Positions 2-25,978 of a DNA stretch of 25,978 bases are shown piece by piece (the stretch's first letter is position 1; every line of letters starts with the position of its first letter). The DNA comes from a virus, in IMG/VR virus record IMGVR_UViG_3300017770_000135, positions 1-25,978 of that record; one strand, given 5' to 3'. The notes below the pieces were generated by a model. That model saw nothing but the letters and a program-made list of their open reading frames with translations. It was not told the origin of the DNA and searched no databases. A program made the position numbers and the translations under genes.

Positions 2-226
2 AGAAAAGAACAACCTAATATTGGAATAGTTAAATATTCTAATAAGTCCTTAGAAGCTCTAGGAATAAATCCTGGAACACTTATTACGTTCACGCCTAAC
101 TCGGAATTTGAGTTTATTATAGAGGGTGAACGACTTTATTGTATGAAATTAAATGATATAGCTTTAACGCATGAATACCAAGGAAACGAAAAAGAAAATA
201 ATCCAAGCTGGGCAAAAAGCAGTTGA
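2..226 (+). CDS. GroES-like co-chaperonin, C-terminal part (partial at the left edge)
   Basis: The second reading frame is open from the window edge to a TGA at 224-226, giving 74 residues of a protein whose start lies outside. The pattern is that of the Hsp10/GroES fold in phage and bacterial co-chaperonins: a hydrophobic strand (LITFTPNSEFEF), an IEGERLY turn, then a MKLNDIAL strand that matches the usual 'D-I-[LA]' end of GroES. Known co-chaperonins cap a GroEL-type ring, and the T4 relative Gp31 is needed to fold the capsid protein. The position just upstream of the terminase and head genes suits a capsid-folding role, which is inference. GroES normally stops soon after this last strand. 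Here about 18 polar residues follow, encoded mostly in the 56 bases that overlap the next gene. The N-terminal half and mobile loop cannot be checked. Confidence 0.62.
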   Translation, partial: RKEQPNIGIVKYSNKSLEALGINPGTLITFTPNSEFEFIIEGERLYCMKLNDIALTHEYQGNEKENNPSWAKSS

Positions 227-446
227 GGAACTTATTAAGGTAGCAAAAGAAAAGATTGTTGACTCAGACGATGATGTAAGCGCTGACAGATTAAAAAATG
301 CTGCCGCTACTAAAAAGCTAGCTATATTTGATGCTTTTGAAATACTTAATCGTATTCAACAAGAGGAAGATATGTTAAATGAGAAGCCTAAAGAAGTTAA
401 AATAGAAAAAACTTTTAAAGGCTTTGCAGAAGGGAGAAGCAAGTGA
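171..446 (+). CDS. Candidate small terminase subunit (91 aa)
   Basis: This is a 91-residue, highly charged and helical protein directly upstream of the large terminase. It overlaps that gene by four bases (GTGA), which suggests translational coupling. The central part (residues about 33-66, including DDDVSADRLKNAAATKKLAI and FDAFEILNRI) resembles a recurring phage protein found next to terL, which I recall as small terminase or unknown. Small terminase subunits recognise the packaging site and stimulate the ATPase. No classical helix-turn-helix is obvious. The ATG at 171 lies inside the co-chaperonin gene. The next in-frame ATG is at 372 and would leave only 24 residues, so the upstream start is preferred. 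The N-terminal lysine-rich helix looks like real coding sequence. The role rests mainly on position and size. Confidence 0.5.
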   Translation: MNTKETKKKIIQAGQKAVEELIKVAKEKIVDSDDDVSADRLKNAAATKKLAIFDAFEILNRIQQEEDMLNEKPKEVKIEKTFKGFAEGRSK

Positions 447-2668
447 TTTACGAACAAACACTTTGGAAAGAGATTAAAGATGTTGTAAACCCTAAGATAT
501 TAGCTAAAAACAATAGATTTAAAAAATGGGATTATGGTTATAATTCTGATTATGATTTTATAGTAATAAGTAAAACTGGAAAAATTGGACAAATCATTGA
601 AATACAAGATCTCAGGATTGCTTTACCAGCAACAAGTGAACCGTTTAAACGAAGTGAAAAAAAAGCGGAGCAATACTGGGAAAAACAAGAATACCCGAAA
701 GAATTAAAAAAAATTAAAAGTAGGTTTGACTGGGAAGAATACCCAGCTGAATTTAAAGAAAAATGGTATGATTATATCGACAAAGAGTTCGAAAGAAGAG
801 AACAGGGTTACTGGTTTTATAATAACAATGTTCCTACTTATATTACTGGCACACATTACATGTACTTGCAATGGTCAAAAATCGACGTTGGAGCACCTGA
901 TTACAGGGAATCAAATAGACTCTTCTTTATATTTTGGGAAGCATGTAAAGCCGATACAAGATGTTACGGAATGTGCTACCTCAAAAACAGACGATCTGGA
1001 TTCTCTTTTATGTCAAGCGCGGAACTTGTTAACCAAGCTACAATATCTTCCGATGCTAGATTCGGTATACTTTCCAAGTCTGGTTCAGATGCCAAAAAAA
1101 TGTTTACAGATAAAGTTGTACCCATATCAGTCAACTACCCGTTCTTTTTTAAACCCATTCAAGATGGTATGGACAGGCCAAAGACTGAACTGGCATATCG
1201 TGTTCCGGCATCAAAGCTTACTAGAAGAAAGCTTGAGTCGAATGAACAACTTAGGGAATTAGACGGACTTGACACAACTATTGATTGGAAAAATACAGGT
1301 GATAACTCTTATGATGGTGAAAAATTAAAATTATTAGCTCATGATGAAAGTGGTAAATGGGAAAGGCCTGATAACATATTAAATAACTGGAGAGTTACAA
1401 AAACCACATTAAGACTAGGATCAAGAATCGTAGGTAAGTGCATGATGGGCTCAACTTCAAATGCTTTAGATAAAGGTGGAGACAATTTTAAAAAATTATA
1501 CGAAAGTTCAAGCGTTACAAAAAGAAATAAAAACGGACAAACATCTTCTGGGCTCTATAGCTTGTTCATTCCTATGGAGTGGAACTACGAAGGATTCATC
1601 GATATTTATGGACTACCTGTCTTCGTTAGAGGTGAAAATACAGTCAAAGGAGTTGATGGTTTTGAAATTACAACAGGAGTTATTGAACACTGGGAAAACG
1701 AAGTTGAAGGACTAAAATCAGATCAAGATAGTTTAAACGAGTATTACAGACAATTTCCAAGAACAGAGCAGCATGCTTTTAGAGATGAAACAAAAGATAG
1801 CTTGTTTAATTTAGTTAAAATATATGAACAAATAGATTTTAATGAAGAAGCTAATAACAATGCTACTATATCTTTAGGTAATTTTCAATGGAAAAATGGG
1901 ATTAAAGATACTAGCGTGAGTTTTATGCCTAATCCTAATGGTAGATTTAGAGTTAGTTGGGTTCCTGAAGTTTCTATACAAAACAATGTAATAATAAAAA
2001 ATGGAATTAAATACCCAGGTAATGAGCATATGGGAGCTTTCGGATGTGATAGTTATGATATTTCTGGTACTGTTGACGGTCGCGGCTCTAAAGGAGCACT
2101 TCATGGATTAACAAAGTTTAGCATGGAAGACGCACCACCTAATCATTTCTTTTTAGAATACATATCAAGGCCACAAACAGCTGAAATATTTTTTGAAGAT
2201 GTTTTAATGGCTTGTATATTTTATGGCATGCCAATTCTAGTAGAAAATAATAAACCAAGATTACTTTATTATTTTAAAAGAAGAGGTTATAGAGGTTTTA
2301 GCATGAATAGACCTGATAAAATATGGAACAAGTTGTCTACTACAGAAAGAGAGATAGGTGGAATACCTAATTCAAGTGAAGATATTAAACAAGCTCATGC
2401 TGCGGCTATAGAGTCTTACATAAATGACAATGTTGGTCAATTACAAAACTCAATGGGTAATATGTATTTTCAAAAAACATTAATAGATTGGTCTAGGTTT
2501 AACATAAACAATAGAACAAAGTTCGATGCTACTATAAGTTCTGGACTAGCTATAATGGCTTGTAATAAAAATAAGTATAGACCTGTTCAAGATAAGGTTT
2601 CTAAAAAAATAAACCTAGGAATTAAAAGATATAATAACGAAGGAGCAATTTCTAAATTAATACAATAA
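443..2668 (+). CDS. terL: Terminase large subunit (ATPase and nuclease)
   Basis: The protein (741 aa) is the packaging motor that drives DNA through the portal and cuts it. The ATPase half shows a deviant Walker A, KNRRSGFS at residues 181-188, with the R-x-G-[FY]-S pattern also known from phage lambda gpA. Walker B is LLAHDES with D301 and E302. The coupling motif is GSTSN at 336-340. The nuclease half shows an RNase H-like strand GCDSYD (D536, D539), a second acidic site in ILVENN (E601) and a third candidate near D647. An aromatic N-terminal region (GYWFYNN, PTYITGTHYMYLQW) precedes the ATPase and is, to my recollection, typical of Bacteroidota phage terminases. The start is GTG at 443 with an AGGGAG six bases upstream, the only Shine-Dalgarno-like site seen before a gene in the window. 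C is clearly enriched around 840-1260 compared with the nuclease half. Confidence 0.9.
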   Translation: MIYEQTLWKEIKDVVNPKILAKNNRFKKWDYGYNSDYDFIVISKTGKIGQIIEIQDLRIALPATSEPFKRSEKKAEQYWEKQEYPKELKKIKSRFDWEEYPAEFKEKWYDYIDKEFERREQGYWFYNNNVPTYITGTHYMYLQWSKIDVGAPDYRESNRLFFIFWEACKADTRCYGMCYLKNRRSGFSFMSSAELVNQATISSDARFGILSKSGSDAKKMFTDKVVPISVNYPFFFKPIQDGMDRPKTELAYRVPASKLTRRKLESNEQLRELDGLDTTIDWKNTGDNSYDGEKLKLLAHDESGKWERPDNILNNWRVTKTTLRLGSRIVGKCMMGSTSNALDKGGDNFKKLYESSSVTKRNKNGQTSSGLYSLFIPMEWNYEGFIDIYGLPVFVRGENTVKGVDGFEITTGVIEHWENEVEGLKSDQDSLNEYYRQFPRTEQHAFRDETKDSLFNLVKIYEQIDFNEEANNNATISLGNFQWKNGIKDTSVSFMPNPNGRFRVSWVPEVSIQNNVIIKNGIKYPGNEHMGAFGCDSYDISGTVDGRGSKGALHGLTKFSMEDAPPNHFFLEYISRPQTAEIFFEDVLMACIFYGMPILVENNKPRLLYYFKRRGYRGFSMNRPDKIWNKLSTTEREIGGIPNSSEDIKQAHAAAIESYINDNVGQLQNSMGNMYFQKTLIDWSRFNINNRTKFDATISSGLAIMACNKNKYRPVQDKVSKKINLGIKRYNNEGAISKLIQ

Positions 2669-2671
2669 TAT

Positions 2672-5059
2672 ATGATTTACACAACTAATAATAGTTCTTT
2701 TCCAGATCAGGTAGTACCTGATGCAGAGAAAGCTACTTTAGAATACGGGCTTGCTGTTGCTAGAGCTATTGAGGGAGAATGGTTTAAAAACTATAGATAT
2801 GGTACTAATAATCCTGGTTACGCAGTAAACTACAATAACTATCACAGTTTAAGATTATACGCAAGAGCAGAGCAACCAACAAAGAAATACAAAGATGAAC
2901 TTGCTATAAATGGAGATTTAAGTTATTTAAACCTTGATTGGAAGCCTGTACCTGTAATACCTAAGTTTGTAGATATTGTTGTTAATGGAATGTCTCAAAG
3001 AAATTATGAAATAAAAGCATTTGCTGTTGATCCTTTCTCTACTAAAAAAAGAACTGACTACGCTAAAGAATTAATGAGAGATGTTAGAGAAAGAGAGTTA
3101 GCACAGAAAATAGAACAAGTAACTGGTCAAAAAGTTCAATCACCACAATATAAAGAATTAGGATTAGAAACAGAAGAAGAAATTAAACTGCATTTACAAT
3201 TAGATTATAAACAGTCTGTAGAAATAGCAGAAGAAGAAGTTATAAATGATGTTTTACAAAGAAACAAATACGATTTAACTAGAAGAAGAATAGCTGAAGA
3301 TTTAACAATTTTAGGTATTGCATGTACTAAAACAAACTGGAATCAAGCAGAAGGAATTACTGTAGACTATGTAGATCCTTCAACTTTGGTTTACTCATAT
3401 ACAGAAGATCCAAACTTTGAAGATTTATACTACGTAGGTGAGGTTAAGTCAATATCTTTGGCTGATTTAAAAATGCAATTTCCTTACTTAACAGATTCAG
3501 AATTAGAAACAATACAGAAGTATGATGGAAACTCTGAATACTTAAGAGGTTTTAATGGTAAAAATGATAACTTAACTGTTCAAGTACTTTACTTTGAATA
3601 CAAGACTTATAGCGATCAAGTTTTTAAAATAAAAGAAACACCAACAGGTTTAGAAAAAGCTTTAGAAAAGCCTGATACATTTAATCCACCAGAAAACGAT
3701 AACTTTGAAAGAGTTTCTAGAACTATAGAAACGCTTTATAGCGGTGCTAAAATACTAGGACATCCTATGATGTTGAACTGGGAATTATCTAAAAACATGA
3801 CAAGACCTTTTGCAGATACAACTAGAGTTAAAATGAATTACAGTATATGTGCTCCTAGAATGTATAAAGGTAGAATAGAAAGCTTAGTAAGTAGAGTAAC
3901 TGGCTTTGCTGATATGATACAGTTAACACATTTAAAACTACAACAAGTAATGTCTAGAATAGTGCCAGATGGTGTATATTTAGATATGGATGGTTTGGCA
4001 GAGGTTGATTTAGGTAATGGAACTAATTATAATCCAGCAGAAGCATTAAATATGTATTTTCAAACTGGTAGTATTGTAGGTAGATCTTTAACTCAAGATG
4101 GTGATCCTAATAGAGGTAAAGTTCCTATACAAGAATTGCAATCTAGCTCAGGTGGTGCTAAAATACAATCTCTTATACAGACTTATGAATATTATCTAAA
4201 AATGATTAGAGACGTTACGGGTCTTAATGAAGCTAGAGATGGAAGTACTCCAGATAAAAACGCTTTAGTTGGGTTACAGAAATTAGCTGCCGCTAACTCT
4301 AACACAGCAACTAGACACTTATTGCAAGCAATGTTGTATTTAACATCGAGAACTTGTGAGAATATATGTCTAAGAATATCAGATTCTTTAGAATATCCAT
4401 TTACTAAGTCTGCTTTAGAAAATAGTATATCAAGATACAATGTTTCTACTTTAGAAGAAATAAGTAATTTAAACCTACATGACTTTGGTATATTCCTAAA
4501 TTTAGAACCAGACGAAGAAGAAAGACAATACTTAGAACAGAATATACAAATAGCTTTAAAAGGAAACGCTATTGATTTAGAAGATGCGATTGATCTTAGA
4601 GAAATAAACAACATAAAGTTGGCTAATCAAATGCTAAAAGAAAGAAGAAAAAGAAAGCAAAAACGAGACCAACAGATTCAACAACAAAATATTCAAGCTC
4701 AAGCTCAAGCAAACGGCCAGTTAGCTGAACAAACAGCTTTAGCTGAAACACAAAAACAACAAGTTATAACAGAGCAAAAAATGCAATTAGCAAAAGCAGA
4801 AAGTGATTTCGAAATATTGCAAATGCAACAAAAAGCTCAAATAGATCAGCAACTATTAGATCTTAGGTACACTTATGACATGAAATTGAAGCAGATGGAA
4901 ATAGATGCTCAAGGTCAAAAAGAAAACATGATTGAAGATAGAAAAGATCAAAGAACAAAATTAGAAGGTTCACAACAAAGTGAAATGATACAACAAAGAC
5001 AAATGGATGGGCCTCCAATAAATTTTGATGCAAAATACAGTGACTTATTATCACAATAA
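2672..5059 (+). CDS. Portal protein
   Basis: The 795-residue protein follows terL after a three-base gap in the same frame. Portals form the dodecameric channel at one capsid vertex, where the terminase docks and DNA enters and leaves. Recognition rests on position and size and on the segment at residues about 511-550 (RDVTGLNEARDGS, then LVGLQKLAAANSNTATRHLL), a motif I know from portals of this type. From about residue 645 to 780 the protein is a Lys/Arg- then Gln-rich coiled coil (QQIQQQNIQAQAQA, EQKMQLAKAESDFEILQMQQ). This would build a long barrel inside the capsid like the P22 portal barrel; that comparison is inference. The last residues (PPINFDAKYSDLLSQ) form a short non-helical tail. 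The leader has no Shine-Dalgarno motif. Confidence 0.85.
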   Translation: MIYTTNNSSFPDQVVPDAEKATLEYGLAVARAIEGEWFKNYRYGTNNPGYAVNYNNYHSLRLYARAEQPTKKYKDELAINGDLSYLNLDWKPVPVIPKFVDIVVNGMSQRNYEIKAFAVDPFSTKKRTDYAKELMRDVRERELAQKIEQVTGQKVQSPQYKELGLETEEEIKLHLQLDYKQSVEIAEEEVINDVLQRNKYDLTRRRIAEDLTILGIACTKTNWNQAEGITVDYVDPSTLVYSYTEDPNFEDLYYVGEVKSISLADLKMQFPYLTDSELETIQKYDGNSEYLRGFNGKNDNLTVQVLYFEYKTYSDQVFKIKETPTGLEKALEKPDTFNPPENDNFERVSRTIETLYSGAKILGHPMMLNWELSKNMTRPFADTTRVKMNYSICAPRMYKGRIESLVSRVTGFADMIQLTHLKLQQVMSRIVPDGVYLDMDGLAEVDLGNGTNYNPAEALNMYFQTGSIVGRSLTQDGDPNRGKVPIQELQSSSGGAKIQSLIQTYEYYLKMIRDVTGLNEARDGSTPDKNALVGLQKLAAANSNTATRHLLQAMLYLTSRTCENICLRISDSLEYPFTKSALENSISRYNVSTLEEISNLNLHDFGIFLNLEPDEEERQYLEQNIQIALKGNAIDLEDAIDLREINNIKLANQMLKERRKRKQKRDQQIQQQNIQAQAQANGQLAEQTALAETQKQQVITEQKMQLAKAESDFEILQMQQKAQIDQQLLDLRYTYDMKLKQMEIDAQGQKENMIEDRKDQRTKLEGSQQSEMIQQRQMDGPPINFDAKYSDLLSQ

Positions 5060-6215: not shown

Positions 6216-7712
6216 ATGGGATTTGTAGATAATGGGACAGCGCCTGGAATAGGTGCGTTTCCCGCACAAATTACTCCAATGCCAAACAAAGTAACTGTAC
6301 AAGACAATTATATTGACTTTCAGAAAGCTGGGTTTGAACAATGGGGACAACAATATCTACCTGAGCTTTACGAAGCTGAAGTAGAAAGATACGGAAACAG
6401 AACTTTAGGTGGTTTCTTGAGAATGGTTGGAGCAGAAATGCCAATGACTTCTGATCAAGTTATTTGGTCTGAGCAAAATAGATTACACGTTGCTTATGAC
6501 TCTGTAACTGTTGCAGTAAGTGGTGCTGATCCACTTTATACAGTAACTATTGCTTTACCTGCTGGTCAAGACACTGGTGCTGTAAGAGTAGGTAACACTA
6601 TATTAGTTTCTGACTCTTCAGGTTTAGTTACTGCTAAACTTTTAGTTAAAGACGTTACTGGTGCTACTTTTAACACTTTAGCTTGTGTTAGTTATGAAGG
6701 TGCTACTTTAGTAGGTACTACTTTAATAAGTGCTACTAATAGTTTATTCGTATATGGTTCTGAATTTCCAAAAGGAACTAACGGTATGAGTGGAGCTATT
6801 GAGCCAACTTTAAGTACGTTTAAAAATTCTCCAATTATATTGAAAGACAACTATGAACTAGCTGGTTCTGATGCTGCTCAAATTGGATGGGTTGAAGTTG
6901 CTACTGAAGATGGTCAATCTGGATACTTATGGTATTTAAAAGCTGAGTCTGAAACAAGATTACGTTTCGAAGACTATCTTGAAATGTCAATGGTTGAAGG
7001 AAAGAAAATGGCTACAGCTGGTGAAACTTTTGGTGCTAAATTTACACCTGCAACTACATTAGCTGCTCCTGGACAAGTAGTAAAAGGTACTGAAGGTTTA
7101 TTTTCTGCTATTGAAACAAGAGGTAATATATACTCTGGTTTTGCTGGTGCTGCTGCTCCTGGTTCTGGTGCTTTAGGTGATTTCGATGAAATCCTTAAAA
7201 ACCTAGACAAGCAAGGTGCTATAGAAGAAAACATGCTTTTCTTATCTAGAGCTACTGCTCTTGATTTTGATGATATGATAGCTGCTGTTAACGGTGGATT
7301 TGCTTCTGCTCAAGCTGCTTCTTATGGTCTATTTGAGAACGATGGTGATATGGCATTAAACTTTGGATTTTCTGGTTTTAGAAGAGGTTCTTATGACTTC
7401 TACAAGACTGATTGGAAATATCTAAATGATGCTACAACTAGAGGTTTAGACAAAGAGATTGATGGTGTAATGGTTCCTGCTGGAACTACTACAGTATACG
7501 ATCAAATGTTAGGATCAAACATCAGACGTCCTTTCTTACATGTAAGATATAGAGCTTCTGAAACTGAAGATAGAAGAATGAAATCTTGGATCACTGGATC
7601 TGTAGGTGGAGCCTTTACTTCTGATCTTGACACTATGAGAGTTAATTTCTTATCTGAAAGATGTTTAGTCGTACAAGCTGCTAATAACTTCGTGTTATTT
7701 AAAGGAGCTTAA
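6216..7712 (+). CDS. Major capsid protein
   Basis: The 498-residue protein is assigned as the HK97-fold shell subunit. It has the expected length and follows portal and scaffold. The segment at residues about 38-85 (FEQWGQQYLPELYEAEVERY, GNRTLGGFLRMVGAEMP, SDQVIWSEQNRLH) matches what I recall of major capsid proteins of crAss-like and related Bacteroidota phages. Residues about 98-190 are a Val/Thr/Gly-rich beta segment that may be an insertion domain on the capsid surface. The C-terminal part (IRRPFLHVRYRASETEDRRM, then SVGGAFTSDLDTMRVNFLSE) fits the axial domain. Codon choice is very uniform (GCT, GGT, ACT, TCT), as expected of a highly expressed gene. The A/T-only leader AAAAATAAAAACAA precedes the ATG. 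A hairpin terminator follows 14 bases after the stop. Confidence 0.85.
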   Translation: MGFVDNGTAPGIGAFPAQITPMPNKVTVQDNYIDFQKAGFEQWGQQYLPELYEAEVERYGNRTLGGFLRMVGAEMPMTSDQVIWSEQNRLHVAYDSVTVAVSGADPLYTVTIALPAGQDTGAVRVGNTILVSDSSGLVTAKLLVKDVTGATFNTLACVSYEGATLVGTTLISATNSLFVYGSEFPKGTNGMSGAIEPTLSTFKNSPIILKDNYELAGSDAAQIGWVEVATEDGQSGYLWYLKAESETRLRFEDYLEMSMVEGKKMATAGETFGAKFTPATTLAAPGQVVKGTEGLFSAIETRGNIYSGFAGAAAPGSGALGDFDEILKNLDKQGAIEENMLFLSRATALDFDDMIAAVNGGFASAQAASYGLFENDGDMALNFGFSGFRRGSYDFYKTDWKYLNDATTRGLDKEIDGVMVPAGTTTVYDQMLGSNIRRPFLHVRYRASETEDRRMKSWITGSVGGAFTSDLDTMRVNFLSERCLVVQAANNFVLFKGA

Positions 7713-15082: not shown

Positions 15083-15087
15083 ATATT

Positions 15088-17205
15088 ATGAAAATTAACA
15101 TAGCATATTATAATAGTTTCTGGGCTAAAAGCGTTAAAGATAGTGATTATGCTCCAAATGTTCCTCAATGGCCAGGTTTACCTTGGTTTGATGGAAGCGC
15201 TAATTATCCTAATACTAATTATCCAGTATATCCGTTTGGCTCGCAAACAAAAACAGCTCCATCTACTGCAGGGAGTTATAATACTACATATCCAGCTTCT
15301 AGCAGAATGTGGTTTATAGAAGAGTCTAGAATAAAAGGTGGTTATAATAATACTTCAATAGACTATGGTGTTAGAGCTTATTTAGTAGATGACAACAAAT
15401 TAGGCTCATTTAAGGGTAATTATTTAATTTATTCTGGGATATTTAACTCTAAGAGTAACTTTAATCAAACTAACGTCTTTTCAAATGCTGAGCCTATAAC
15501 CAGATCTTTAGACCCAGCTTTTGGTGATATACAAAAACTTTACTCTGCAGAAACAAATTTATTAGTTTTTCAAGAATTAAAAACAAGCAAGATATTAGTC
15601 AACAAAAACCAATCTTATAACAACTTAGAAGGTTCAGTTGATAATAATAGAGTTTTAGGTCAGGTAGATCCTTATGCCGGCATGTATGGTATAGGTAGAA
15701 GTCCAGAGTCTTTTGCTTCTTATGCTAATAGAAGATATTTTGTAGACAAAGATAAAGGAGCTGTATTAAGATTATCTCTTGACGGTCACACTGAAATATC
15801 TAATTACGGAATGAGAGACTTTTTTAGAGACTCTTTAAATAATTTAAATGATCAATTTCTTGTTTATAATACTAAAGATAATTCAGGTAGTATTAAAATA
15901 GAAATAGAAATACCACCAAATCCTTTGAGCCCTGATTTATTCGAAGTCCTATTGAAAAATATTGATTGTTGTGACGTTAATCCTGGCTCTATATTATCTC
16001 TAGATGATCCAAGTAACCCTGGAACTTCTATAGAATTAATAAACACTAATACTAATGAGCCAATATACGTTACATCTATAGACTGCGCTACTAATGGAAT
16101 AACTTTATCTAGCGGTAACAACTTAGCTAATATAGACCCAACTCCAGTTACTACATATAATTATGTATGGAATTTGACTACTCCTGGTACTGGCTACATA
16201 ATAGGCACTTCATACACAACAACAACTATAACAGGTAGTGGAAGTGGCGCTATTGTAACTGCAACCGCAACTAATGGAGATGGTAGTGTTATAAATGGAG
16301 AATTTGCAAACGGCTATGTTGCTGGAGACATAATAAGCGTTAACGGTGGTGGTGTAAAAGCAGAACTTACTCTTTCTCTTGTTCCTAATACTGGAGGTTG
16401 GCAATATGTTTATCTACAAAACAATTATAAATCTAAGATTTACGGAGGATATGACATTCACAATGGCAATTACACTATGTCTATGCAAGTTAATTCTGCT
16501 TTAATATCAGATTCTACTACTACTATATCAGGTGATGGTCAATTAAACGACTCTACTAATACTTATAAAACTCTTTCATATGATGAGACTGTTAAAGGTT
16601 GGGTTAGTTTTTACAGTTTTAAACCTACATGGATGGATAGTTTACGTAATGTTTTTATATCTACTTATGAATCAGGTATATATTACCATTATGATCAAAG
16701 TGTGGCTAATAATAGAGGTAAGTTTTACACTCATGATATTGCAGAATCTAATATAACATTTTTATTTAATGCATCGCCTAGTATAAGCAAAACTTTTAAA
16801 ACAGTTTCTTACGAAGGATCTTCAGGATGGCAAGTTTCTTCAATAAAATCAGATTTTGAAGGTATGAATTATTTTAATTCATCTTTCAGTGAAAATCAAG
16901 ACGTTGTAAATAGTGTTAAAAGCTACTTAGAAGGAAGGTACGAATTAAATAATCCAGTAAACACTGGCACTTCAGCAGTTGTTCACCCGTTTGGCCAAGC
17001 TGGTTTTGATAGAAAAGAAAATAAATACGTTGCAAACATAGTGAATAACAGTGTAGCTAGACCTGGAGAGGTTATATTTGGCAATCAAATGTCAGGTATT
17101 AAAGGATTTTTTACTGAAACAAAGTTTGCTGTAGATAATGTTACAGAGCCTGGGGGCATGAAAGAATTGTTTTCTGTAAGTGCTAATTTTGTAAAATCTT
17201 CTTAA
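15088..17205 (+). CDS. Tail structural protein, nozzle partner (705 aa)
   Basis: The 705-residue beta-rich protein is rich in Asn, Tyr and Ser. Landmarks are WFIEESRIKGGYNNTSIDYG and VRAYLVDDN near residues 75-105, YANRRYFVDKDKGAVLRLSL near 213, and KTLSYDETVKGWVSFYSFKP near 490-510. These repeated strand-turn units suggest a beta-propeller or stacked beta sheet. Residues about 290-425 carry a Gly/Thr-rich insert (TPGTGYIIGTSYTTTTITGS, ANGYVAGDIISVNGGG) resembling the insert in the 1268-residue protein. A DCCDVNPG pair of cysteines begins it. The gene lies five bases after the previous stop. I suspect that the two proteins together correspond to a single nozzle assembly, with this one more distal. 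A tail-tip or receptor-proximal role is also possible. No depolymerase or lysin motif was recognised. Confidence 0.6.
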   Translation: MKINIAYYNSFWAKSVKDSDYAPNVPQWPGLPWFDGSANYPNTNYPVYPFGSQTKTAPSTAGSYNTTYPASSRMWFIEESRIKGGYNNTSIDYGVRAYLVDDNKLGSFKGNYLIYSGIFNSKSNFNQTNVFSNAEPITRSLDPAFGDIQKLYSAETNLLVFQELKTSKILVNKNQSYNNLEGSVDNNRVLGQVDPYAGMYGIGRSPESFASYANRRYFVDKDKGAVLRLSLDGHTEISNYGMRDFFRDSLNNLNDQFLVYNTKDNSGSIKIEIEIPPNPLSPDLFEVLLKNIDCCDVNPGSILSLDDPSNPGTSIELINTNTNEPIYVTSIDCATNGITLSSGNNLANIDPTPVTTYNYVWNLTTPGTGYIIGTSYTTTTITGSGSGAIVTATATNGDGSVINGEFANGYVAGDIISVNGGGVKAELTLSLVPNTGGWQYVYLQNNYKSKIYGGYDIHNGNYTMSMQVNSALISDSTTTISGDGQLNDSTNTYKTLSYDETVKGWVSFYSFKPTWMDSLRNVFISTYESGIYYHYDQSVANNRGKFYTHDIAESNITFLFNASPSISKTFKTVSYEGSSGWQVSSIKSDFEGMNYFNSSFSENQDVVNSVKSYLEGRYELNNPVNTGTSAVVHPFGQAGFDRKENKYVANIVNNSVARPGEVIFGNQMSGIKGFFTETKFAVDNVTEPGGMKELFSVSANFVKSS

Positions 17206-17234: not shown

Positions 17235-17897
17235 ATGCCAATACCTTTAATAATCCCTATAATAGCGGTCGGTGCTCAGTTAACCAACGGTATTATAGCA
17301 AATGGAAAAGCTAATCAAGCAAAAAACGACGCTAAAACTTTAGCAGATAACATAACTACATTAGAAAATAATAGAACACCTATTATAAACCCTTATGAAA
17401 ATGCTAAGGACATGTCAAGTATGCTTTCTAATCCTTATGCAAATATAGGCGTTGCTACTCAATCGGCACAGATGGAAGCTGAAGAAGCTGATATTGCTCT
17501 AGCTAATACTTTAGATGCTGTAAGAGCTGGTGGTTTTGGATCTGGTGGGGCAACTGCTTTAGCTCAAGCCGCTTCTAAAAGTAAAAGAAATATTTCAGCT
17601 GATATACAGAAGCAAGAAGCTGCTAACAATAAATTAAGAGCAGATGGAGAGGCTAATTTGCAAAACCAAATAATGAATGAAAAAATAAGAATGCAAGGTT
17701 TAGATGCTGCTGGAAAAGAATTTATGTATAAAGAACAAAACGCAAGAGATGAGCAGCAGTTAAATAGAGCTCAAGCGTTGTACGATAATGAAAAAGCTCA
17801 AGAAATGCAATATAGAGCAGACACAGTTAATGCTTTCTCAGGTGCAGCTAGTAGTTTAACATCTTTTGGCATGGCGCCTGCAGGTACTTTTGGATAA
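17235..17897 (+). CDS. Internal virion / cargo protein (220 aa)
   Basis: The protein opens with a hydrophobic segment (IPLIIPIIAVGAQLTNGIIA, residues 3-22) and continues as one long Ala/Gln/Glu-rich helical region. The most striking stretch is DIALANTLDAVRAGGFGSGG followed by ATALAQAASKSKRNISADIQ (residues about 85-125), a Gly hinge inside helices that I recall from ejection or cargo proteins of short-tailed phages. In position and composition it resembles T7 gp14-type internal proteins, which insert in the host outer membrane after ejection. That comparison is functional inference, not homology seen here. The hydrophobic N-terminus could be a membrane-insertion segment and does not look like a cleavable signal peptide. 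It is followed by two larger probable cargo proteins. Confidence 0.62.
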   Translation: MPIPLIIPIIAVGAQLTNGIIANGKANQAKNDAKTLADNITTLENNRTPIINPYENAKDMSSMLSNPYANIGVATQSAQMEAEEADIALANTLDAVRAGGFGSGGATALAQAASKSKRNISADIQKQEAANNKLRADGEANLQNQIMNEKIRMQGLDAAGKEFMYKEQNARDEQQLNRAQALYDNEKAQEMQYRADTVNAFSGAASSLTSFGMAPAGTFG

Positions 17898-17920: not shown

Positions 17921-19831
17921 ATGGGATCATACACACAACCTAGTCAAGTGCTAGACGAAACACATTCGAACATAAATAAAGGTTTTGCTCAAATAGAAAC
18001 AGATATAGCTAATAAATTAAAAGCTAATAGATTACAAGCTATAGAAGATCAAAAACTTTTAGAAAAACAAAGAATAGAGAGATCAAAACTAGACTTAAAA
18101 AGACAAAAAGATCTTAACCGCCTAAAAGGAGAAGAAAGAGATGCTGGAATAAACGTAGTTCATTCAGTAGAAGGCGCGGTTGTTGGTGAAGAAGAAGGCT
18201 ACTCAAACATAAGAATAAATGGTAACATTGTAAAAGTTAAAAGATCAAATGTAGTAAAAGCTCAAGAATTAAGAGAGAAAAGTAAAAATACAACTGATAA
18301 AGAAGAGCAAAAAAAAATTAGAGAAGAGTTACTTAAACTAGATGAAGAAACTGGTATTGATGTAATGAGTTTTGATATTAACGAAGACGATTTTGGTGGC
18401 ATACAATTTGGTATAGAAGAAGATTTAAATTATTTATACAAGCAGCTTGCACAACACGAGCCAAACAGTGCTGAGTATGAGTTTACTGTAGGATTAATAG
18501 AGCAAGTTTTAGATGAAGCTCCTGTTTTAGTAAGTCTACTTAACAAGACAACAGAAAATAACGCTTCTGCTTACAACTTGAATGGCGAATTACTCAAACC
18601 TGAAAGAGGTATAAATGGAATATTACTAGATGATGGAGCCCCTAACTTTGAGTTAAGAGCAGAAGTTAGCAAACACATTATATTCGGAACTAAACAAGGT
18701 AGATTTTCTTATGAATCAGTAGGTAATCAACCTACTAAGCAAGGTCAGTTTTCAGGATCTTCATATATACTATATACAGCAGAAAATGGTGAGACACTTA
18801 AAATAGGTTATGATGAATATAAAAAGTTAGTTGAAGATGGCGGTGGCTTAATAGGCACTACAAATGGTGAGCCGTACAATAAAGCAATTAAAAAAATATG
18901 GGATCAAAATAAGAATGCTTATAAAAAGTTATCAGATAAAAGTATTAATACGTCTACTCAAAATCAAGGAGATAGAAAAGTTACTATTAGAGAGACTGTA
19001 CAAAGCTTTGATAACGCTAACGCTAACTTAGAAGCATCAATAACTGACTTTGTGTACAACGGTGGTATGAACAATGTTGAAGGCAAAATACCTGGATACA
19101 ATTACGCACAAAACTTTTGGCAAATGTCAGGTGGTCCAGATGGTAGTGAAGAGATGAGGGTCTGGAACAATAGTGATGAGCAAAAGAAAAGATTAGCTAC
19201 TTTATTAACGGAAAACATCAAAAGAGAGTACGCTAACGAAACTAACATAACTAGCTACAATATAACCAATAAAGAATACAACAATGAACAAGAACAAGAA
19301 TCTACTGCTATATTGACAGAAGGTTTACTATTAGATGCTGAAATATCTGAAAAGTATTTTAAATCTAAAAATTCATTAGATAATAATAACAAAGCTGAAT
19401 ATGGTTATCAGGATATAAGAGATAATTACAAAACTTTATCAAACAATGGTTTTAGAGGAGCTGCAGCTATGTTAACTGATTTAGACACAAGTAATAAAAA
19501 AACTTACAGATCTGGAGCTGATATGAATACACAGCTTGTTAAAGATAATAATTACAAACTTTTAGACGAAAACGGTAATCCTGTAATGCAAGCAGACCCT
19601 AGTAAATTATATGTAGACATAGGTAATAATAATACTTATCTAGAACTAAACGTAACCGATTTTCCTTCTTTAATAAACGAAGTTAAAAATGCTAGAGGAA
19701 CAAAAAAATCAGTTCACGAAAAGGCAATAAAAAAAATAAATACTGAAACACCTATTGATGAAACATCAGAAGTTAAAAAAGGTGATGAAGAACAATTTAA
19801 TGTAATAGAAATAGCTGACCAATTTGCGTAA
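17921..19831 (+). CDS. Probable internal cargo protein (636 aa)
   Basis: The 636-residue protein has no family I can name. Residues about 15-140 are charged helices and probable coiled coil (NKLKANRLQAIEDQKLLEKQ, RIERSKLDLKRQKDLNRLKG). A mixed domain follows, with acidic segments (FDINEDDFGGIQFGIEEDLN) and Asn-rich loops. The C-terminal 40 residues are Lys/Glu-rich. It has no signal peptide, no transmembrane segment and no visible catalytic signature. It sits between the 220-residue hydrophobic-start protein and the giant protein; in short-tailed phages such trios are often ejected with the DNA. Its stop codon shares one base with the next start (TAATATG, stop 19829-19831, ATG 19833 after one intervening base), which suggests coupled translation. 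The cargo assignment is contextual. Confidence 0.55.
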   Translation: MGSYTQPSQVLDETHSNINKGFAQIETDIANKLKANRLQAIEDQKLLEKQRIERSKLDLKRQKDLNRLKGEERDAGINVVHSVEGAVVGEEEGYSNIRINGNIVKVKRSNVVKAQELREKSKNTTDKEEQKKIREELLKLDEETGIDVMSFDINEDDFGGIQFGIEEDLNYLYKQLAQHEPNSAEYEFTVGLIEQVLDEAPVLVSLLNKTTENNASAYNLNGELLKPERGINGILLDDGAPNFELRAEVSKHIIFGTKQGRFSYESVGNQPTKQGQFSGSSYILYTAENGETLKIGYDEYKKLVEDGGGLIGTTNGEPYNKAIKKIWDQNKNAYKKLSDKSINTSTQNQGDRKVTIRETVQSFDNANANLEASITDFVYNGGMNNVEGKIPGYNYAQNFWQMSGGPDGSEEMRVWNNSDEQKKRLATLLTENIKREYANETNITSYNITNKEYNNEQEQESTAILTEGLLLDAEISEKYFKSKNSLDNNNKAEYGYQDIRDNYKTLSNNGFRGAAAMLTDLDTSNKKTYRSGADMNTQLVKDNNYKLLDENGNPVMQADPSKLYVDIGNNNTYLELNVTDFPSLINEVKNARGTKKSVHEKAIKKINTETPIDETSEVKKGDEEQFNVIEIADQFA

Positions 19832-19832
19832 T

Positions 19833-22800
19833 ATGAATTATAGATTTAAAGGAACAGATTATACTGAAGACCAAATGAGCGAAGTAGCTGGTGTAAAAGG
19901 CTACACTTTAGATGAGTTAATATCTAAAAACCCTCAAATAGAAATTATAAATGAGAAAGAAGACGATGTATTAGAACCTCTTGACTTAGGAAAGGAAGTT
20001 GAAGTGGAAAAGCCTGCGCCTGTCGAGATTGCCCCAGCTGCGACAGAGATAAAAAGCGATGGGGTTTCCAAGCCGGAAGATACTTCATTGGAATTAGAAA
20101 AGAATAAAAAAGTTGAACCTGTAAAAGTAGAGGAAAAGCCTAAAGTTGATAATTTAATATATCCTGAAGCTACCAATACTAAAGAACTTGAAAAAGCTTT
20201 TGAAAAAGAATACAACGTCAAGTATAAAAACATTCAAAAAGCTGTAGACGCAGATGTTTTAAAAGCAGATCAAAACTTTAAAAATGAATTAGACAAGTAC
20301 TTTTCAGAAGGCATAGACAAATATAAAGCTGTAAATGAAGACGGTACAGAATACCTTAATTTTAATCTTTTAGAAAGAGACGCTTATAATAGCGCTGTTG
20401 AAAAATACAAAAAAGAAATAGAAAACATAAACACTACATATAGTAAAGACAAGTTAAATGACTACGTTGAAAGATACAACTCTTTTTTAGGTGAAGAATC
20501 TAGAAAACAACTAGACCAGCTATTAGTAGACACAGAGAAAGGCAAACAAGATCTTATAGATTTTGAAAAGAAATTATACTTTAGATACAATAAAGATGGT
20601 GAGCTATTAGGTATACACAATTATGATAGTATATATCAAACATACGTAGCTCCTAAGAGACTTAAATACGAAGAATATGTAAGTATACCAGGAAACGAAA
20701 ACAAAACAAGGAAAGAGTATAAAAAAACATCTAACGTATTGCCATCTTATGACAGCGTAGAAGACTACGTAGAGCAATATAACAAGTGGAAGAACTGGGG
20801 TCAAGGATATATGGTAGAGTCTAGAAAAGAAAATTTACTACCTGAACTTGTTGTAGAAACAACCACTAAAAAATCTGATATTAACAATCGTGTAGATTAT
20901 TGGAATAATGAATTTTCTGGACCTGCTCAAGCTATATTCAACGATTTTGACGATAATACTGCTGCTAGAATATTAAAAAATTTACTACCAGAAACTTTTG
21001 ATGTAAGTCCTTATAATCCTTTAAAAAACCAAATATCTATAACTAATACCAAGACAGATGAATCTTATGTTATTGATGTGTTTGCTGATGGTAAAAAAGC
21101 TATAGCTAAAAGTCAATCTAGTGAACTAGCTGGTTGGTTAGCCGCTAACACAACTAATGAAGACATAGACTTAACAAATAAAAGAAAAGAGGATCTCAAT
21201 AAGTTTTTACTAAAAGCTCAGTCTGAGTCTGCGTATGATGCAAATGGAGATTTAACTGGAGGTTTAAATGTAGAATCAAAAAGATTACCTTTTACTAGTG
21301 AGTATTCTGCGAGCCCTGTCTCTGATTTAAATGACTTTAGTGTAGACATGTCATTGTTTGCTGTTAAAAAAACTCCTGCTTATAGTAGACAGGCTATGGG
21401 TACTATCACTGGTATGAAAGTGCAAGAAGAAGTTACTACGCCAGACAGGCAGAGAAAAGCTCAACAAGCATCTTTTAATGCTTTTATACAGACTGTTTCT
21501 TCAAATGGTAAACCAATAGGTGTGTCAGGAGAAATAAACTATTCTACTATGCCTACTTATGAGCAAAGTTTGAAAACTACCAATAAGCTCATGGATCAAA
21601 AAATGCCAATTGATTCTTACACAGAGATACCTAGTACTTATCAAGCTAGCCCAACATCTAGTCCAAAAGAAAAGCAAATAATAGAATATTCTAAACAAAA
21701 CAAAGAAGCACTGTTTTATTATGACAAATCAAATGGTGAGAAAGTTTTGTTTGATACTAAAAAATGGAGTGAAGAAAACGATGGTAAAAACTTTACTGAA
21801 TTTATAAGTAGAAAAGCTGTAAATGAAATAATAGTACCTCAAGATTTAATTGAAGAAGAAAAATCTGTTTTTGAAAAAGCTATAGGTATGGATTTCTTAG
21901 GAGATCAAGATTTAAATAAGCAAGCTAAAATTATATTAGCAAATATAAATGTAAACAAAAAAGTTAAAAACGAAATAGCTTCTACTAAGTATATTCAAAA
22001 AACTCTTGAAAATAAATTAAAAAATACTACTTTTTATAATGTAGAAACTGCACAAGCAATTTTAAATATTCCAGGATATGAAGTAGAAATGAGAGAAGGA
22101 GAAGATATTGTTGAAGTAGAGACTAATTATGGTGAAAAAGTTTTAGCACCTAAGTGGATTTTTGATAACGCTAAGCTAGAGACTACTAACTTTTTATCTT
22201 CAATTGAAGCGTATAAAGAAAACAACGAAGCACAAAGTAAACTTATTGATGTTTCAGAAAAAGCTGAAGATAAATGGGATATATATAGGTTAAACTATAG
22301 TGATACAGAGGCTAATCTTCAAAACTTTGCACTATCAACAGGTGATTTTTTAAACTCAGCATTGTATGGAGGCGTTAAATACTTATCACCTTTTGGATGG
22401 GCCATGACCGCTTTATCAGCTAAAGCTGGAGTGCAAGATCCTCTTACAGATTTAATGTTAGGTTTTAAAGATTATGGAGATAAACAAAGGTCTTATTACA
22501 ATGCCCCTCCTGAATTTGGAAAGTTTAAAACTGCAGCTGAATTTGGAAGTTGGTTTTTTAACATGGCAGGGACTCAAGTTCCTCAATATGCAACCATGCT
22601 ATTTAGCGGTGGTAGCGCTTCTTTGCCTCTTATATTCATGGGTGCTTCTGCTACTGGTTCTACTGATTTAGATTTTAGAAGAGAAGTTATAAGTGGTACA
22701 AAAGATTACAATGAATTTGGAATAATGTGGAGAGCTGTATTATCAGGTGGCTCTGAAGCTTTGTTTGCAGGTTTACCTACTTGGAAAATTCTTAATAAAG

Positions 22801-25800
22801 GTAAGAGTTTAGTTTCTGGTTTAGGCGGTGATGCTACATCAAAGTTTTTTAAAGGAGGTAAAGATTATTTAAGAGCTCAAGTACCTGGAATTATTAAAGA
22901 TACTTCTGTAGATGCTGGTTTTGAAGTTGTGAATGGTGTTGTTCAAAATTTACTAGCTGGAAGACCTAGCACTCAAGGCTTAGGCGAAATAGCAGCTACA
23001 AGCATATTGATGACTGGTCCTGTTAGCACTCTGTCCCCAACATACTATGCTTTAACCACTAAAGATTTCATAGGTGGAAACTTAAAACAAAGCATAAATG
23101 AAAACACTTGGAAAATAAACCAAATAGAACAGCAGAATAAATCTTATTTTAAAAGCATACAAAAATTCATGAAAGCCGCTACTTTAAGAGCTGGCACTAG
23201 TGATGGTAGGTTTGCAAAGCAAAAGGTTCAAGAGCTTAAGAATAAAATACTAGAAAACGTTAATATTAAAATTAATTTAGAAACAGACGTTAAGTCTGAC
23301 TATAAAACACTAGATAATTTATTTAAAAACAAAGGTGTAAATCCAGCTGGAAGTGCTAATTATAATTTCATGCTTAATGAATTAGTAAAACTAAAGTCTT
23401 CTGCTAAAGAAATAAACCTAAACAACAACTTAACCGCTTCTCAAAAAACAGATTTACTTGATAAGGTTAATGCGCAATATGTAGCTATTGACCAAGCTAA
23501 AGAAAAATACTTAGATCCAAAAACTTATGGAGATGCTTGGTATGCTTTAAAAGGAGCTGGCATATTTGATTTAAAAGCTAAAAGACAATACAAGGAGTAT
23601 ATTAGTAAAGCCACTCAAAACCTACAAGAATCTGGTGTTACTAATGATAACATGACAAATGAAAAGATAGAACAAGAAGCTAGACTTCTTTATCATGATA
23701 AAATAGCAGAAGATCAATTAGCTAAAGATAAGAAAGTAAGACCAGAACTAAAAGTTGCAAGAACACTTGAAGAGGCTAAAAATATAATAAATTCTAGTGA
23801 AACTTTAAGTGAAGATCAAAAGAAAAATTTAATAAGCAAGCTTGAAAAAGGAACTCAAAATGGATTTACTATAGATGAATTTGAGTTTGCTTATAAACCT
23901 AATATGGTTAAAAATAGTATGTTCCATACTGGAAGCCACGAAATATCTCACTATTCATCTGCAGAATTAATTACAAGAAACCCACAAGCTTTCAAAGGTT
24001 TTGCTGATCAACTAGTTTCTTTTATGGAGACTGATCATGCAGAGCTTTTAGAGTACGCAAAACAAGTTAATGCTAATTTATTTAAAGACGGTAAGTACGA
24101 TCCTGAAGAAGTAATAGCTACATTTATAGAACTAGTAGGAGCTGACAAAATAAAAATGAATAAAAATGGTAATGTACCTGCTTTACTAGGTTTTTTGTTT
24201 AATAAAAGTTTAAATAATGCTAGTGAAGGAGAATACAATATACCTTTTAATGGACAAGATGATATTGTTAATTGGTTTATTGGCCTTGGTAAAGCTTTAA
24301 CAAACGGTGATGTTACAGTTGGTAAATATACTGATCTATTAGCTGGTGCATTAGATATAGATTTAGAAACTGGAAAAGTAATTCCAATAACTGATCAAAC
24401 TTCTAAGCTTGCAGCTAGCGAAGCTAGTGTTAGTTCTTCTGAAACTACTCTACTTGAAGCCATTAACAACTTACTACCTGAAGATATAGATACTAAAGAA
24501 AAGTATGATAACTTTATAAGAGATGAAAGAAAAGCAAAGCCAGTTGTAGACGCGTTAAACAAGCCAGGTGGAGCTATAAATAATTATATAAGATCTAAAC
24601 AGGTTAGTCCAGAAGAAGGCAACGAGATGATACAAAACACGTTGTTTAGGTTGTTTAATTTTAACCCTGAAGAAACTAGAGCAGACGGCAGTATAGTAGG
24701 TCCTGAAGCTTTTGGTGAAAGAATATTTTCTGATACTAGATTTGCCTCAATGGACGCTAGAAAAAAGCTAGCTAAAGAAGCAGAGAAGAAGAAACAAGAA
24801 GACAGAATAGATAGTGAAGAAGCAAAACAGGTAGCTGCTAAAGATGACACTACTCCTGTTAATACAGCTAAAGACAAAGTAACTCCTAAATCAAAAATAC
24901 CTAAAGAGTTTCCAGAAGTATTTGATAAAGAAATTAAAAAAGAGTTTGAAACAGCTGGACTAGAAATATACGAAAGTGATATTCCAGATATATCTAAAAA
25001 AGAATTTAAATCTGTTATTACTGAACTTTTTAGAGGTAAACTAACTAAAAAAGTAAAAGATAAACTAGGAACTGGAAAAAACTACAGTTTTGTAGTTAAA
25101 AAAATGGCTCCTATGATGAAGGATCTTTTACCTATACAATGGTTTGTTAGATTAGAATCTCAAACAAAACCTGAAGATAGAATATTTACTAAACCTCCAA
25201 CGCGTTTGACTAAGCAGACTGAAATTGACGCCGCTATTTTAGACGAAAAAGTATATGCAGAAAATATAGCTCAAGGAGTTAATGTATATGAGTTTAAAGA
25301 TTTTAAACCAAAAGAGCTTATTGATTATTTATTACCTCCTTTAAAAATAACAAGTGCTAAAACAGGTAAAGAAGTAAGAAGTGGACTTAGAGGTAATAGA
25401 AAAACTACATTTGCAGAAGGTTTAACAGATAGACTAGGTAGAGATGTGTCTCCTTCTTCAGCTGAAGCAGTAGGTAAAACACCTAAAGAAATAGCAGAAA
25501 TAAGTAGAAAGCTACAAGTAGATCCTAGAATTAAGTTTAGTGAAGTTCATAATGATATAAGAAAAGCATACGGCGGACAGTTAGAGTATTTTGATGCAGG
25601 TAATTATAAGGAAGCTGCTAAAAGTGTTAATAAAGTTAGAGATTTTGTTGTTGACGTGTTAGCACCTATATTAGGCGGTGACGTATATAATTTAATAGAT
25701 TCAAATAATCTTGCTCCTATAGGTAACAGATGGTTTAAAAACGTTGGAAGAGGATTGTTTATGGGAGATGTTTTTCCTATGAGCAAAAAAAATATAGATC

Positions 25801-25978
25801 TATACAATGAGACTGTAGATATAAATAAAACTTTAGTAGCTCAAGGAGTTTTAGGAACCTTAAAAGATTTAGTAGCAGATGTAGAAGCTTCGTCAGGTAT
25901 AAAAAAAGGTGAACAAAAAACAAATACAAGTAAAATTCTAGCCAAACAAGACCTAAGCAAACTTGAAGACAACTTAAA
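19833..25978 (+). CDS. Giant internal virion-type protein with HExxH motif (partial, over 2048 aa)
   Basis: The frame from ATG 19833 was followed codon by codon. It has no stop to the window edge, so at least 2048 residues are encoded and the C-terminus is missing. Residues 1-50 form a small folded start (FKGTDYTEDQMSEVAGVKGY). Residues about 45-110 are an acidic Pro/Glu/Lys/Val linker encoded by a GC-rich island. Then come long helical regions, two Gly/aromatic hydrophobic stretches at about 831-868 and 903-945 (FGSWFFNMAGTQVPQYATML), and at 1369-1373 the sequence HEISH, a zinc-metallopeptidase HExxH signature. EEVIATFIE at 1425-1433 offers a possible third ligand. A very large protein at the end of a cargo cluster fits a DNA-ejection or 'polyvalent' protein that enters the host. 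The protease role is inference from one motif and its helical setting. Confidence 0.75.
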   Translation, partial: MNYRFKGTDYTEDQMSEVAGVKGYTLDELISKNPQIEIINEKEDDVLEPLDLGKEVEVEKPAPVEIAPAATEIKSDGVSKPEDTSLELEKNKKVEPVKVEEKPKVDNLIYPEATNTKELEKAFEKEYNVKYKNIQKAVDADVLKADQNFKNELDKYFSEGIDKYKAVNEDGTEYLNFNLLERDAYNSAVEKYKKEIENINTTYSKDKLNDYVERYNSFLGEESRKQLDQLLVDTEKGKQDLIDFEKKLYFRYNKDGELLGIHNYDSIYQTYVAPKRLKYEEYVSIPGNENKTRKEYKKTSNVLPSYDSVEDYVEQYNKWKNWGQGYMVESRKENLLPELVVETTTKKSDINNRVDYWNNEFSGPAQAIFNDFDDNTAARILKNLLPETFDVSPYNPLKNQISITNTKTDESYVIDVFADGKKAIAKSQSSELAGWLAANTTNEDIDLTNKRKEDLNKFLLKAQSESAYDANGDLTGGLNVESKRLPFTSEYSASPVSDLNDFSVDMSLFAVKKTPAYSRQAMGTITGMKVQEEVTTPDRQRKAQQASFNAFIQTVSSNGKPIGVSGEINYSTMPTYEQSLKTTNKLMDQKMPIDSYTEIPSTYQASPTSSPKEKQIIEYSKQNKEALFYYDKSNGEKVLFDTKKWSEENDGKNFTEFISRKAVNEIIVPQDLIEEEKSVFEKAIGMDFLGDQDLNKQAKIILANINVNKKVKNEIASTKYIQKTLENKLKNTTFYNVETAQAILNIPGYEVEMREGEDIVEVETNYGEKVLAPKWIFDNAKLETTNFLSSIEAYKENNEAQSKLIDVSEKAEDKWDIYRLNYSDTEANLQNFALSTGDFLNSALYGGVKYLSPFGWAMTALSAKAGVQDPLTDLMLGFKDYGDKQRSYYNAPPEFGKFKTAAEFGSWFFNMAGTQVPQYATMLFSGGSASLPLIFMGASATGSTDLDFRREVISGTKDYNEFGIMWRAVLSGGSEALFAGLPTWKILNKGKSLVSGLGGDATSKFFKGGKDYLRAQVPGIIKDTSVDAGFEVVNGVVQNLLAGRPSTQGLGEIAATSILMTGPVSTLSPTYYALTTKDFIGGNLKQSINENTWKINQIEQQNKSYFKSIQKFMKAATLRAGTSDGRFAKQKVQELKNKILENVNIKINLETDVKSDYKTLDNLFKNKGVNPAGSANYNFMLNELVKLKSSAKEINLNNNLTASQKTDLLDKVNAQYVAIDQAKEKYLDPKTYGDAWYALKGAGIFDLKAKRQYKEYISKATQNLQESGVTNDNMTNEKIEQEARLLYHDKIAEDQLAKDKKVRPELKVARTLEEAKNIINSSETLSEDQKKNLISKLEKGTQNGFTIDEFEFAYKPNMVKNSMFHTGSHEISHYSSAELITRNPQAFKGFADQLVSFMETDHAELLEYAKQVNANLFKDGKYDPEEVIATFIELVGADKIKMNKNGNVPALLGFLFNKSLNNASEGEYNIPFNGQDDIVNWFIGLGKALTNGDVTVGKYTDLLAGALDIDLETGKVIPITDQTSKLAASEASVSSSETTLLEAINNLLPEDIDTKEKYDNFIRDERKAKPVVDALNKPGGAINNYIRSKQVSPEEGNEMIQNTLFRLFNFNPEETRADGSIVGPEAFGERIFSDTRFASMDARKKLAKEAEKKKQEDRIDSEEAKQVAAKDDTTPVNTAKDKVTPKSKIPKEFPEVFDKEIKKEFETAGLEIYESDIPDISKKEFKSVITELFRGKLTKKVKDKLGTGKNYSFVVKKMAPMMKDLLPIQWFVRLESQTKPEDRIFTKPPTRLTKQTEIDAAILDEKVYAENIAQGVNVYEFKDFKPKELIDYLLPPLKITSAKTGKEVRSGLRGNRKTTFAEGLTDRLGRDVSPSSAEAVGKTPKEIAEISRKLQVDPRIKFSEVHNDIRKAYGGQLEYFDAGNYKEAAKSVNKVRDFVVDVLAPILGGDVYNLIDSNNLAPIGNRWFKNVGRGLFMGDVFPMSKKNIDLYNETVDINKTLVAQGVLGTLKDLVADVEASSGIKKGEQKTNTSKILAKQDLSKLEDNL
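23937..23951 (+). other. HExxH zinc-binding signature in the giant protein
   Basis: The codons CAC GAA ATA TCT CAC encode H1369-E-I-S-H1373 of the giant protein, in the context HTGSHEISHYSSAELI. In zincin metallopeptidases the two His bind zinc and the Glu activates water. About 50 residues on, DPEEVIATFIE holds Glu residues (1425, 1426, 1433) that could give the third ligand, as in gluzincins. Chance occurrence of the short motif in so long a protein cannot be excluded. Confidence 0.5.

Follow-up and report, generated by a model that had tools for sequence, protein, structure and literature searches.

A predicted zincin-type metallopeptidase domain in the giant, apparently ejected protein of a large group of Bacteroidota phages

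The giant protein encoded at the end of a virus fragment of 25,978 bases (source record G000, analysed over its full length and referred to as the window) very probably contains a domain of the zincin fold whose ligand set, made up of the motif HEISH and the glutamate E1426, is intact. We regard it as a gluzincin-type metallopeptidase domain because the fold predicted by AlphaFold2 has the zincin topology, HEISH being placed on one helix and E1426 on another; the domain is predicted to bind zinc and to act as a protease. The domain belongs to the giant of a large group of Bacteroidota-infecting phages, a protein which appears to be packed and injected. Most likely this gluzincin cuts the ejected chain in which it resides, an assignment for which we see about even chances. 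As the first-pass annotation of the window had stated, metallopeptidase domains occur in large 'polyvalent' proteins of phages and plasmids (Iyer et al. 2017, PMC5512222), and giants delivered with the virion are known to contain zincins (PMC5512222; for the N4 structure, PMC12633501). The family described here from this phage group has no match to the Pfam model of such zincins, PF18818.

The open reading frame holding the domain (P0001) can start at an ATG or at an in-frame TTG, from which it comprises 2051 amino acids. As it is still open where the record ends, the protein is truncated and its full length lies beyond the record. The window stops within the giant gene and therefore lacks the conserved C-terminal region of the relatives' giants; what it covers is roughly the first two thirds of a giant 'polyvalent' protein that is probably carried in the virion. 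HEISH comprises residues 1369-1373 counted from the ATG (used below), or 1372-1376 counted from the TTG. It is the only HExxH of the 2051-aa frame, where about 0.002 are expected from the composition. The first-pass annotation had placed this motif in a helix; the coordinates were confirmed on checking, and AlphaFold2 likewise puts the motif in a helix. It had further named three acidic residues downstream, and here the outcome was divided. E1426 is a likely ligand, being glutamate in all aligned relatives, and at E1433 an acid is conserved (D or E in 41 of 45), but E1425 (24105-24107) is glutamate in only 25 of 45. In the upstream part of the giant, residues 898-1023, which include a hydrophobic stretch, are weakly similar to gp74 of Tenacibaculum phage Gundel_1 (tblastn, E=2e-3).

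Table 1. Features of the window (feature, positions, strand, basis or remark; residues are those of P0001 unless stated otherwise)
Terminase large subunit	443..2668	+	phrog_6681, E=2.1e-167
Portal protein	2672..5059	+	phrog_6547, E=1e-139
Head structural protein	6216..7712	+	phrog_13704, E=2.1e-93; homologue of phi38:1 structural protein gp093
Muzzle-like tail protein	15088..17205	+	PF25729 crAss_MUZ_C, residues 542-652 of this protein, E=3.3e-8, over cut-off
220-aa protein	17235..17897	+	kept in relatives (phmmer)
636-aa protein directly 5' of the giant	17921..19831	+	same order in relatives
Giant open reading frame holding the domain (P0001)	19833..25978	+	ATG 19833; in-frame TTG 19824; at least 2048 aa, open at record end
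Hydrophobic stretch, possible membrane segment (residues 923-943)	22590..22652	+	hydropathy
Zincin-like domain, approximate limits (residues 1279-1521)	23658..24386	+	AlphaFold2 model; alignments A1, A3, A4
Predicted strand pair preceding the active-site helix (model residues 126-129, 132-136)	23862..23894	+	AlphaFold2 model
HEISH (HExxH), two predicted zinc-ligand His and catalytic Glu	23937..23951	+	single HExxH in 44/49 relatives' giants
E1426, predicted third zinc ligand	24108..24110	+	E in 45/45; 59/59 model-aligned domains
E1433, conserved acid one helical repeat further	24129..24131	+	D 25, E 16 of 45

Terminase, portal, head and tail genes precede the giant (Table 1). The product of the head gene is probably the major capsid protein, as assigned by its position. 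The module ends with the genes for the muzzle, the 220-aa protein, the 636-aa protein and the giant, and this order recurs in relatives. It resembles the order muzzle-C1-C2-gp47 of crAss001 and gp52-gp51-gp50 of N4. By position the 220-aa protein would be the counterpart of the first small cargo or ejection protein, and the order of the genes suggests that the 636-aa protein corresponds to crAss001 C2/gp46 and N4 gp51. The terminase shares 64% identity with that of an uncultured spring podovirus and 46% with those of Flavobacterium phages of the elemo group; the terminases of Cellulophaga, Tenacibaculum and Maribacter phages are more distantly related. In IMG/VR more than 600 stretches encode relatives of the window terminase. 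The tail/muzzle region (11276-17205) consists of two genes (1268 and 705 aa) in the window and in many relatives and of one fused gene in phi38:1, Gundel_1 and L104. The first partial open reading frame of the window (2-226) matches the C-terminal end of the GroES co-chaperonin family (phrog_13932, E=3e-4), and GroES/GroEL-like genes are found near the terminase in related phages, too.

No close relatives were found with the protein as the only seed, and relatives were instead reached via the anchor genes terminase and muzzle. In three relatives that were found by similarity (21-30% identity) both histidines, the glutamate between them, E1426 and E1433 are invariant columns. Contigs were then fetched by their muzzle gene and the following giant open reading frame was read, in order to avoid dependence on similarity. 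The count covers the 49 loci in which the giant spans 700 residues or more. Exactly one HExxH was present in 44 of these giants; the five without it include a short fragment (L151). This amounts to 44 motifs in 99,801 residues, compared with 0.1 expected on shuffling, whereas the 673 other open reading frames of the same loci contain two in 337,945 residues. In the fetched parts of cultured relatives HExxH is confined to the giant.

For an alignment of 45 domains the members were selected for one HExxH alone. Besides the motif, E1426 is the only invariant column, at a mean column identity of 17%. Clustering at 30, 40 and 50% identity divides the 45 domains into 10, 20 and 34 groups, respectively; given this and the low identity, the family does not represent one recent lineage. 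The glutamate was also present in a model-based alignment of 59 domains, including those that lost HExxH; of this alignment only the Glu column was used, the column of the second His being one off owing to an insert. A regular expression describing the Glu helix matched 41 of 54 sequences (shuffled mean 3.1), a result to which we give little weight because the pattern was written after the data had been seen. A profile of the domain recovered held-out giants (e.g., L112, L108, L116, L113, L106; E-values from 8e-31 to 1e-6). It also finds the giant of the cultured Flavobacterium phage vB_FspP_elemoA (QLF85284.1; E=1.6e-11, HEIFH), which is situated at the same position; unlike the window giant, this is a frame of 3703 aa, and its remainder is without detectable similarity. 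Both the His-Glu-His set and E1426, whose conservation the first-pass annotation had proposed to examine, are thus kept in homologues.

The stretch 23487-24536 was modelled with AlphaFold2 using the alignment of the 45 relatives. The mean pLDDT is 79.8, with mostly 85-97 in the core, and a trimmed model agrees with the full one. The predicted topology consists of a long N-terminal helix, three strands, the HEISH helix (model residues 148-164) and a later helix with E1426 (206-218), an arrangement also described in the literature for the zincins of polyvalent proteins (PMC5512222). This topology, together with the conserved HEISH and E1426, supports the gluzincin-type layout that had been proposed. 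The model places the motif in a helix of a zincin-like fold, and neither of the two outcomes that the first-pass annotation had named as refuting was obtained. In structural comparisons zincins head the match lists or recur in them (PPEP-3 and the M34 catalytic domain, both Z 4.9; MATCAP, ArdC, collagenase G/H), with Z never above 4.9 and no match significant alone. Foldseek gave no significant match in the PDB for either model; in BFVD the best match was the giant of elemoC (E=0.05). The case for the fold rests therefore on the topology and the conserved ligand set.

At the sequence level no zincin model of Pfam, PHROGs or NCBIfam was over cut-off for the window domain and the 45 relatives. 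Scattered weak matches below threshold included Peptidase_M78 in six members (best E 0.021) and SprT-like in two. PF18818 (MPTase-PolyVal) was searched for in 13 records, that of the window among them, and did not match any at E<=10; it is not among the first 25 of the 93 families listed for the 45 members. A profile search of solved structures yielded only a ubiquitin match located upstream of the motif, which looks like a chance match and was rejected.

Apparently complete giants of the relatives are about 2000-3600 aa long. They are composed of a hypervariable part of the first 600-1300 residues, the zincin and a strongly conserved C-terminal part. The latter, about 700-800 aa, is common to all 33 relatives compared; the rest of the giants mostly diverges. 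In L170 it extends over about residues 1420-2052. The C-terminal region opens with a set of motifs (DFxDT, LTAR, Lys, DD) that we read as HAD-like from the sequence, and found no counterpart in Pfam, in PHROGs (searched with three proteins) or among 50,697 phage records. The giant is a large protein of the multidomain type among virion genes; further domains were seen in relatives only. Gene order and the relatives suggest that it is packaged in the head and ejected into the host. The annotation of both phi38:1 gp101 and Gundel_1 gp74 is that of a structural protein, and mass spectrometry has detected crAss001 gp47, which corresponds to the giant by position, in virions (PMC10172136).

Three known systems can be compared. 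The N4 virion RNA polymerase gp50 (Schitoviridae) carries the zincin C1 at residues 2124-2375 with the motif HELVH. In both cases HExxH occupies the central to C-terminal half of a giant that is, or appears to be, ejected, and a large C-terminal part follows it, and both genes adjoin two smaller ejection-protein genes. In contrast to gp50, no polymerase domain was recognised over the Pfam cut-off in the incomplete window giant or in six relatives (RPOL_N at E=0.51 only), and outside the motif no sequence homology to the N4 polymerase was detectable. With the polyvalent-protein MPTase (PMC5512222; P1 DdrB, ArdC) the domain shares the topology, HExxH with a Glu on a later helix, and the location in a large multidomain protein near virion genes; it differs in that the family has no PF18818 match and that ArdC (6i89) reaches only Z 3.1.

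The third system, gp47 of crAss001 (Crassvirales; L199:26120-33145), is likewise placed after the muzzle and two smaller cargo proteins. Its single HExxH is YHEAFH at 2157, and no other crAss001 cargo protein contains one. Eight further crAss-like phages (L200-L207), with giant Suoliviridae proteins among them, keep YHEA[FW]H together with an acidic helix that follows after some 30-40 residues. Unlike in the window, the zincin of gp47 lies near the C-terminus, the spacing to the Glu is shorter and the protein is annotated as an RNA polymerase subunit. Alignment of the crAss and window families with hhalign pairs both motifs (P=4e-4, probability 34%) in the zincin region only, and a search of the crAss001 genome with alignment A5 gave no match. 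Since this probability is low, we consider a common descent of the two zincins, as judged from sequence, to be no more than possible. Within the literature searched, which covered few subscription journals, no paper on a zincin in this phage group or in crAss gp47 was found.

The domain profile also detects the domain in four long giants without HExxH (L155, L183, L164 and L124). The motif is replaced by EELFH in L155, by QEVGH in L183 and by HEITGH (at giant residue about 1100) in L164; in L124 the aligned part begins after the motif position. All four retain the domain and the third Glu. The HEXXXH spacing of L164 has been described for some polyvalent-protein zincins (PMC5512222). To judge from these sequences the active site is altered or lost in a few members, and an intact canonical site is therefore not strictly required in every member. 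The shorter giants gp101 of Cellulophaga phage phi38:1 and gp120 of phi46:3 contain no HExxH at all.

In the mechanism that we propose, a single zinc ion would be bound by H1369 and H1373, both on one helix, and by E1426 on the following helix, with E1370 activating the water. The zincin would cleave the chain to which it belongs, either in the course of ejection or afterwards, and could thereby separate the delivered modules. Such a separation is conceivable because the zincin lies between the variable N-terminal and the conserved C-terminal parts, and it is this location within a very long chain that leads us to prefer self-processing. Self-processing of ejected giants has been proposed for polyvalent proteins (PMC5512222). 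There are two precedents: DdrB of phage P1 is cleaved before packaging, with self-cleavage proposed, and in the N4 polymerase the zincin lies between the polymerase and the C-terminal domain. The N4 polymerase is packaged unprocessed (PMC5512222), hence cutting before packaging is not general. Split giants, which would be a genetic sign of self-processing, were sought in the members with altered motifs and none was found. In L124, L155 and L183 the giant is nonetheless one unbroken chain of about 2600-2750 aa, so processing is not essential in all members, and the giants of phi38:1 and phi46:3 without the motif also argue against self-processing.

Alternatively, the zincin could be an injected effector cutting host proteins (defence, envelope or regulatory) early in infection. 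We rank this explanation second and consider it possible but rather doubtful. It has been put forward for polyvalent-protein zincins (PMC5512222), the domain sequence is far more variable than the ligand set (17% mean column identity), and the motif loss in a few members would suit a host-dependent function. However, the variability is common to the whole N-terminal two thirds and not particular to the domain, and no host target is known or predicted. A fold kept for a structural or regulatory job such as docking or packing of the giant, binding zinc with little or no protease activity, seems unlikely to us. It would be in line with the N4 polymerase, whose zincin is situated in a region required for encapsidation of a protein that is not processed before packaging (PMC5512222), and with relatives that keep the domain despite a lost ligand (EELFH, QEVGH); but a purely structural role does not predict that 44 of 49 giants would retain the catalytic Glu along with all ligands while their overall identity is very low.

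The first-pass annotation had also considered processing of capsid or cargo proteins, noting that no prohead protease is visible in the window. Indeed none was recognised among the window's family matches, which is the point in favour of a maturation protease acting during assembly. The idea itself gained no specific support: the zincin lies inside a cargo protein and away from the head genes, phi38:1 and phi46:3 have the same head gene order without an HExxH in the giant and other fetched regions, and a term search of the text of PMC10172136 did not find capsid processing in crAss001. We regard this role as very improbable. Still less credible is a chance HExxH in a coiled, helix-rich protein without a metal site. 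HExxH alone is a weak pattern, and the zincin models of Pfam and NCBIfam stayed below cut-off, but the family-wide occurrence of the motif against 0.1 expected, the independent invariant Glu and the predicted fold refute a chance origin as far as sequence can.

Hardly anything is annotated in the giants that these abundant phages appear to eject, and the active-site signature would provide a first enzymatic function. It would also extend the range of virion zincins from N4 and P1 to a large marine group and to the crAss-like gp47, and the long-standing proposal that zincins process giant ejected proteins becomes testable in cultured phages (elemoA, crAss001). Tentatively, self-processing may be generalised: the zincin would be a core part of the last giant ejection protein in the marine flavophage-type group, in Crassvirales (gp47) and in N4-like phages, acting as a release protease that cuts between modules in the host, although we think it somewhat unlikely that this holds for all of them.

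Two giants of relatives show further peculiarities. The giant of an uncultured podovirus (MW202828.1; L092:744-12338) carries HEFGH twice, at a distance of about 885 residues, which may represent two zincin domains; the window domain profile detects neither region. In relative L126 (L209:4209-12751) the giant is followed by an overlapping frame of 844 aa, which reflects either a giant that is naturally divided or a frameshift introduced in assembly.
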